DNA of 50,103 nucleotides. Source: Olsenella sp. An290 (lineage in GTDB: Bacteria; Actinomycetota; Coriobacteriia; Coriobacteriales; Atopobiaceae). This document shows positions 1 to 1,345 of the stretch, one piece after another. Under the pieces are notes generated by a model. It did no database searches. It saw nothing but the letters and a program-made list of their open reading frames with translations, and was not told the origin of the DNA. Location of the stretch: positions 1 through 50,103 of the forward strand of contig NZ_NFIU01000014.1 of assembly GCF_002159535.1 (NCBI RefSeq), in the 5' to 3' direction. Every line of letters starts with the position of its first letter. Positions within the stretch are counted from its first letter, which is position 1. The translations under genes and the position numbers were made by a program.

Positions 1-294
1 TGCATGTTATTTTTCCTCGCGGCCCGCTCTGGTGGCGCAGCCGCCAGGAAACGCGCCGAGTGAGCGCCCGGCTGCGGTGCGCTGCCAGGAAACGCGCCGA
101 GTGCGCGCTCGTCCGGCGTCCCGGGCGCGCACTCGTCAATCTTTCTGTCCGTCCGGACAAAAGTTGCGCCCACTGCGCGCAGGGCAGCGCGCACTCGGCG
201 CGTTTCCTGGCAGCGCACCGCAGCCGGGCGCTCACTCGGCGCGTTTCCTGGCGGCTGCGCCACCAGAGCGGGCCGCGAGGAAAAATAACATGCA
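1..294. repeat. Long palindrome with 109-bp perfect arms
   Basis: Positions 1-109 and 186-294 are exact reverse complements around a 76-nt centre (110-185). The arm may continue beyond the window start, because the match is still perfect at base 1. Each arm holds the motif CCAGGAAACGCGCCGAGTG twice (45-63 and 85-103 on the left), and the centre holds further copies in both orientations. No open reading frame with recognisable content lies here. The stretch 295-416, up to the stop of the pseudouridine synthase gene, shows nothing else recognisable. Confidence 0.9.
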
Positions 295-416
295 CAAATC
301 GAGCTCGCAGGCCGATTATTTCAGGTTCGGACCAAGATTTGTATGCTGCCGCACGCATGCCGCCAGTTGCGCGCCATGCCCGGCGACGCCGGCCTACCCC
401 ACCCGGCGCGAGGCGC

Positions 417-1133: not shown

Positions 1134-1245
1134 ACGAGAAAAGCGTAGCCCAAACGCCGACGCCCCGAGTCTGGAACCGCGGGCCGTCCGGACCTGGGGC
1201 CGCGGGCCCTTGGGGGGAGCGGAGGGACGGCGGGTGTGATGCCGC

Positions 1246-1345
1246 CGCCAGAAATTGCGCCCGGTGCGCGCCGGACGAGCGCGCCGGGCGCGCACCCGTC
1301 AATTCTTCTGTCCGCTCGGACACAAGTCGCGCCGGGTGCGCGCGA
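1246..1345. repeat. Second copy of the alternating-motif repeat
   Basis: This element is closely similar to the centre of the palindrome at 1-294. Shared blocks are CCAGAAATTGCGCC versus CCAGGAAACGCGCC, GGGCGCGCAC, CGTCAAT..TTCTGTCCG, and CGGACA.AAGT.GCGCC. Within it the motif AARYTGCGCCSGGTGCGCGC occurs forward (about 1252-1271), inverted (about 1286-1306) and forward again (about 1325-1343). The rest of the gap 1134-1589 shows no gene and no confident promoter; an ATACGCT-like hexamer near 1528 is the only -10 candidate. Confidence 0.8.

Follow-up and report, generated by a model that had tools for sequence, protein, structure and literature searches.

Structure of the inverted repeat at the end of contig C6

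The DNA analysed here (the window) is 50,103 nt long and represents the whole of contig C6 of the Olsenella sp. An290 genome. This genome, labelled G000, is a draft of 2,153,133 bases in 42 contigs, and the other C and L numbers denote contigs and loci. The gene nearest to the beginning of C6 encodes a pseudouridine synthase (PF00849; 417–1133, minus strand), and its named relatives place it among Thermophilibacter/Olsenella. Two repeats lie between this gene and the contig end, namely, a module of the 65-nt repeat T with its inverted ends and a few flanking bases (278–355, minus strand), and the core of a dispersed intergenic repeat R (80–214, plus strand; recognised from repeat matches), in which natural arms of approximately 25–30 nt surround a 76-nt centre. 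A second, diverged copy of R (1243–1343, plus strand) shares 77% identity with positions 80–180 and lacks perfect arms of at least 12 nt. The window had no Rfam match at the gathering score, and only tRNAs were matched in five R/T loci.

An earlier note on this DNA described a palindrome of nearly 300 bp with perfect 109-bp arms. Rechecking the window sequence confirmed the structure: the left arm (1–109, plus strand) and the right arm (186–294, plus strand) are 100% reverse-complementary and are separated by a 76-nt centre (110–185, plus strand). This length exceeds the chance level, given that the longest perfect foldback among 203,712 interior pseudo-end positions of G000 was 31 nt. The arms had also been said to reach the window edge; as the window is the complete contig, C6 itself physically ends there, and the left arm begins at the terminal base of C6. 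The centre is real sequence of the R element, and other R copies have similar centres; in C5:46456 and C40:59109, for example, the arms are likewise 76 nt apart. The right arm contains R-type units and approximately 17–25 nt of the adjoining T repeat; it runs without a break into T and the pseudouridine synthase gene, and because of this unique flank it was taken as real. A search for the arm elsewhere in the genome, as the earlier note had proposed, revealed no second full-length copy in the other readable contigs, and the best match outside C6 reached 76%.

Characteristics of repeats R and T

R is a dispersed, quasi-palindromic intergenic repeat with 66 matches in G000 at E ≤ 1, many of which overlap. 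It is built from GC-rich hairpin units that point in both directions from a centre of approximately 76 nt, and it sometimes forms short arrays (window 80–214 and 1243–1343; loci L002–L033 and L236–L257; arrays, for example, at C39:94467–94758 and G022:C133:12–242). The perfect arms of 17 other copies in the same genome did not exceed 30 nt, and two of these copies were arranged around exactly 76 nt (C5, arms of 30 nt; C40:59109, arms of 27 nt). The longest perfect arm of R in the relatives was 20 nt (22 loci, some overlapping). The copy at C16:18825 carries two units per side with imperfect arms. R copies are naturally palindromic and some have two units per side, so an arrangement of two plus two units is not odd in itself. 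With a 294-nt query, R was detected in 7 of 31 genus genomes; a 133-nt query, for which fewer candidates were scored, detected it in 6 of 140 family genomes.

T spans approximately 65 nt between inverted ends (ATAGCATACAAA...), with a constant length and an asymmetric inner motif, AACCTGAAAAAAC. The end motifs were 53 nt apart, start to start, in all seven pairs. In its inverted terminal repeats, fixed short length and lack of coding capacity, T resembles a MITE and is a candidate for one. In total, 13 copies were found in G000 (window 278–355, C11:22182, C2:65815, C2:37541, C12:187247, C12:4857, C40:102479, C40:40379, C8:5548, C1:38520, C4:377, C16:36 and C42:81461), and five of them are close to R. 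G000 was the only genome in which T was found among the 31 genus genomes and among the 140 family genomes. In the four other R–T pairs, T lies on the opposite side of R, which is the side where the left arm of the window carries its T end.

Overlap length among contig ends

Sixty-six of the 84 contig ends of G000 could be read; the other 18, belonging to nine short contigs, read as N. The comparison of end overlaps covered 65 of the readable ends. Exactly 109 terminal nucleotides were common to six pairs of these ends, namely, C8 end and C39 start, C12 start and C13 start, C12 start and C38 end, C13 start and C38 end, C18 start and C21 start, and the two ends of C26. Other ends shared 107–108 nt, and the overlap was not always of this size, as two pairs shared 23 nt. 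With 109 nt common to its two ends, C26 (3,586 nt) is possibly circular or one unit of a tandem repeat.

The same length was found in the sister assemblies An293 (G012) and An285 (G001), where exactly 109 nt were common to three pairs among 40 contig starts; one pair of starts in An285 shared 94 nt. Neighbouring k-mers in a de Bruijn graph overlap by k-1, and therefore k = 110 gives an overlap of 109 and k = 95 an overlap of 94. According to PMC6069880, the Olsenella isolates An293 and An285 were sequenced using Nextera XT libraries and 2 × 150 reads and assembled using IDBA-UD, with k rising from 20 to 110 by 15 at a time, and contigs of low coverage were dropped by the pipeline. G000 probably originates from the same study. 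Considering the shared 109 nt at other contig ends of G000 and at sister starts together with an assembler running up to k = 110, the figure of 109 resembles a graph overlap of k-1 and not a biological length. The arm length of the palindrome is tied to this overlap and looks as if it was set by the assembler. Any inverted arm that reaches 109 nt, whether genuine or spurious, would appear as exactly 109. The suggestion that the arms may be longer is thus formally right, as at most k-1 nucleotides of an arm of this kind are visible in a de Bruijn graph.

Foldbacks at contig ends and in the interior

Perfect foldbacks of at least 18 nt beginning exactly at base 1 were recorded at 4 of the 66 readable ends of G000 (C6, 109 nt; C14, 43 nt; C11, 27 nt; C9, 18 nt). 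The interior control yielded foldbacks of at least 18 nt at 119 of its 203,712 positions, and the difference between ends and interior had a binomial probability of approximately 8e-8, with the control stretches partly overlapping and rich in R copies. The sister assemblies presented base-1 foldbacks at 3 of 40 contig starts (76, 20 and 19 nt) versus 0 of 7,200 interior positions at a threshold of at least 16 nt. Foldbacks whose outer end is the terminal base of the contig therefore recur at unrelated ends above the interior background in both data sets. Inspection by eye placed the DNA inverted by the 76-nt sister foldback (L274) at the beginning of an apparent reading frame on the same contig. 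The 18-nt hairpin at base 1 of C9 could be a natural terminator.

Contig breaks caused by hairpins were considered as a source of the end hairpins and were rejected. When the best foldback of at least 18 nt was taken for each of 65 ends, three began at bases 2–40 (C16s, C39s and C40e) and four exactly at base 1; nearness of hairpins alone thus fails to explain the excess at base 1.

Facing contig and orthologous loci

The surroundings of the pseudouridine synthase gene were compared across 110 loci, which comprise two overlapping sets, 80 from named records and 30 from genus genomes, with the locus of the window itself included. The next gene (gene X), whose product combines 4Fe-4S domains with an iron-hydrogenase C-terminal domain, follows in 90 of the 110 loci, mostly at a distance of 44–700 nt. 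Its sole full-length match in G000 starts at C14:139, and five weaker partial matches occur elsewhere. Synteny therefore suggests that C14 is the probable other side of the gap at C6. The 43-nt foldback at base 1 of C14 inverts, as judged by eye, a conserved stretch, TGTGCGATACTA, located just upstream of gene X, which may act as its promoter. Taken together, the position of gene X and the foldback of C14 imply a foldback at each of the two contig ends that probably face each other across a single gap.

The highest score of an inverted repeat upstream of gene X was 31 across 59 relatives, and the median of the best scores was 9. The maximum belongs to one relative (L184), which has a natural 31-nt inverted repeat at this place, so hairpins upstream of gene X are not absurd. 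R and T were absent from 109 loci around pseudouridine synthase orthologues, and the same search recovered both in four positive-control loci. The comparison with the orthologous locus called for by the earlier note thus left positions 1–416 of the window unmatched. In Thermophilibacter mediterraneus (L194, 4661–5345), the pseudouridine synthase gene and gene X are separated by 656 nt, in which another short repeat, GCATAGGAATCGCCGCCCGTC-like by eye, occurs several times.

Origin of the palindrome

The long perfect palindrome is very probably an artefact at an assembled contig end, and the genuine inverted repeat beneath it is imperfect. The perfect inverted repeat is present in the sequence and probably absent from the chromosome. 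The left arm is most likely a folded-back copy of positions 186–294 that exists in the assembly only, and this applies at least to its outer part (approximately 1–79). The earlier note had left three options, and the one in which the assembly is affected is favoured by the shared 109-nt ends, the base-1 foldbacks here and in the sister assemblies, the facing contig and the short-armed R copies. Nothing was found in favour of a recent or actively maintained palindrome, with no second full arm in the readable contigs and no match at the 109 orthologous loci.

The artefact may have arisen as follows. During library preparation or PCR, single strands would fold at the natural 25–30-nt inverted units of R, prime on themselves and copy the flank backwards. 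At sites lacking true coverage, an assembler of the IDBA-UD type, designed for uneven depth, could follow such chimeras outward. Once 109 bases had been copied, the path of k-mers would meet the reverse strand of its own contig and stop, thereby leaving arms of exactly k-1. Inverted chimeras that arise at natural inverted repeats during library preparation have been described for other libraries (PMC10908179). The structure at C6 is similar to such foldback or inverted chimeric reads in that it contains the reverse complement of the adjacent template at natural inverted repeats or palindromes. Published work on these chimeras deals with reads, from human capture libraries, long-read data and amplified DNA, whereas the present case is seen only as a contig end in a finished assembly.

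A real interrupted palindrome, in which R has T on both sides and the arms were equalised by a recent inverted duplication or gene conversion, is unlikely, although several observations agree with it. R is palindromic in architecture, and T beside R is a usual arrangement, seen in 5 of the 13 T copies. The T end of the left arm fits the position of T in the four other R–T pairs and is in keeping with a genuine T on each side of R. If the graph ended at the arm through repeat collapse, the visible arm would measure exactly k-1 whatever its true length, and k-1 is no less to be expected of any genuine arm that reaches 109 nt. However, such a palindrome needs a second flanking contig starting with the same 109-mer, as at other branch points. 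No repeat-collapse junction with a second flank was found among the readable contigs, and C14, the contig expected from synteny, opens with a foldback of its own. The left arm has no unique flank of its own, with 18 of the 84 ends unreadable. These 18 ends of N and a pipeline that dropped contigs of low coverage mean that a left-flank contig may be missing. Also against a real palindrome are the arms of at most 30 nt in the other 17 R copies of the genome and the recurrence of base-1 foldbacks at unrelated ends, sister assemblies included. Neither an orthologous site nor another near-perfect copy was found, a result that a species-specific insertion would give as well. In its full form, this alternative describes a recent, nearly perfect T–R–R–T inverted duplication of at least 294 bp between the pseudouridine synthase and iron-hydrogenase-type genes, made by self-templated copying of R in the cell and tolerated by the species, and we consider it improbable to the same degree.

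An intermediate case, which is quite possible and falls slightly short of an even call, would combine truly inverted inner R units (approximately 30 nt, perhaps both) with a folded-back copy limited to the outermost left arm, including the T end. The two units on each side of the imperfect copy at C16:18825 and the real 30- and 27-nt arms at 76-nt spacing in C5 and C40:59109 agree with this case. It refines the artefact explanation and does not contradict it, and sequence alone cannot place the switch point. A terminal hairpin or another replicon end, such as the closed hairpin end of a linear element, would also look like an inverted repeat at a contig end. It is scarcely credible here, considering that the genes on C6 are chromosomal and, judged by gene order in relatives (90 of 110 loci), run on into C14, and that base-1 foldbacks occur at four unrelated contig ends.

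Comparison with known systems and implications

In Escherichia coli, according to PMC3315005, the SbcCD nuclease targets a 246-bp interrupted palindrome of the chromosome, which is lethal to cells that have SbcCD but lack RecA. A repeat of this kind would therefore be costly but not impossible. The E. coli palindromes resemble the structure at C6 in having two inverted arms around a spacer and a total size in the same range; they differ in that they were engineered and verified in vivo, whereas one arm at C6 is without a flank or independent support. If the palindrome were real after all, it would offer a naturally occurring example in which the origin and persistence of such repeats could be studied.

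A palindrome arm that ends at base 1 of a contig and has the length of the shared end overlap should not be read as biology. For any draft genome, the terminal base, the shared overlap length, the foldback rate at other ends and the facing contig can be checked, which would remove a class of false 'long palindromes'.

R itself resembles REP/BIME-type intergenic repeats in that it is made of short GC-rich hairpin units in both orientations between genes. It differs in that the two Y1-transposase genes of G000 adjoin other repeats, so no Y1/RAYT transposase flanked by R was found. A Y1 (RAYT) transposase was accordingly rejected as the maker of R, as both PF01797 genes are flanked by other repeats. 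These two RAYT-type genes are located at L115 (C3:14915) and L116 (C23:130776), and their flanks contain, by eye, GGGGACAG-containing repeats unrelated to R and T.
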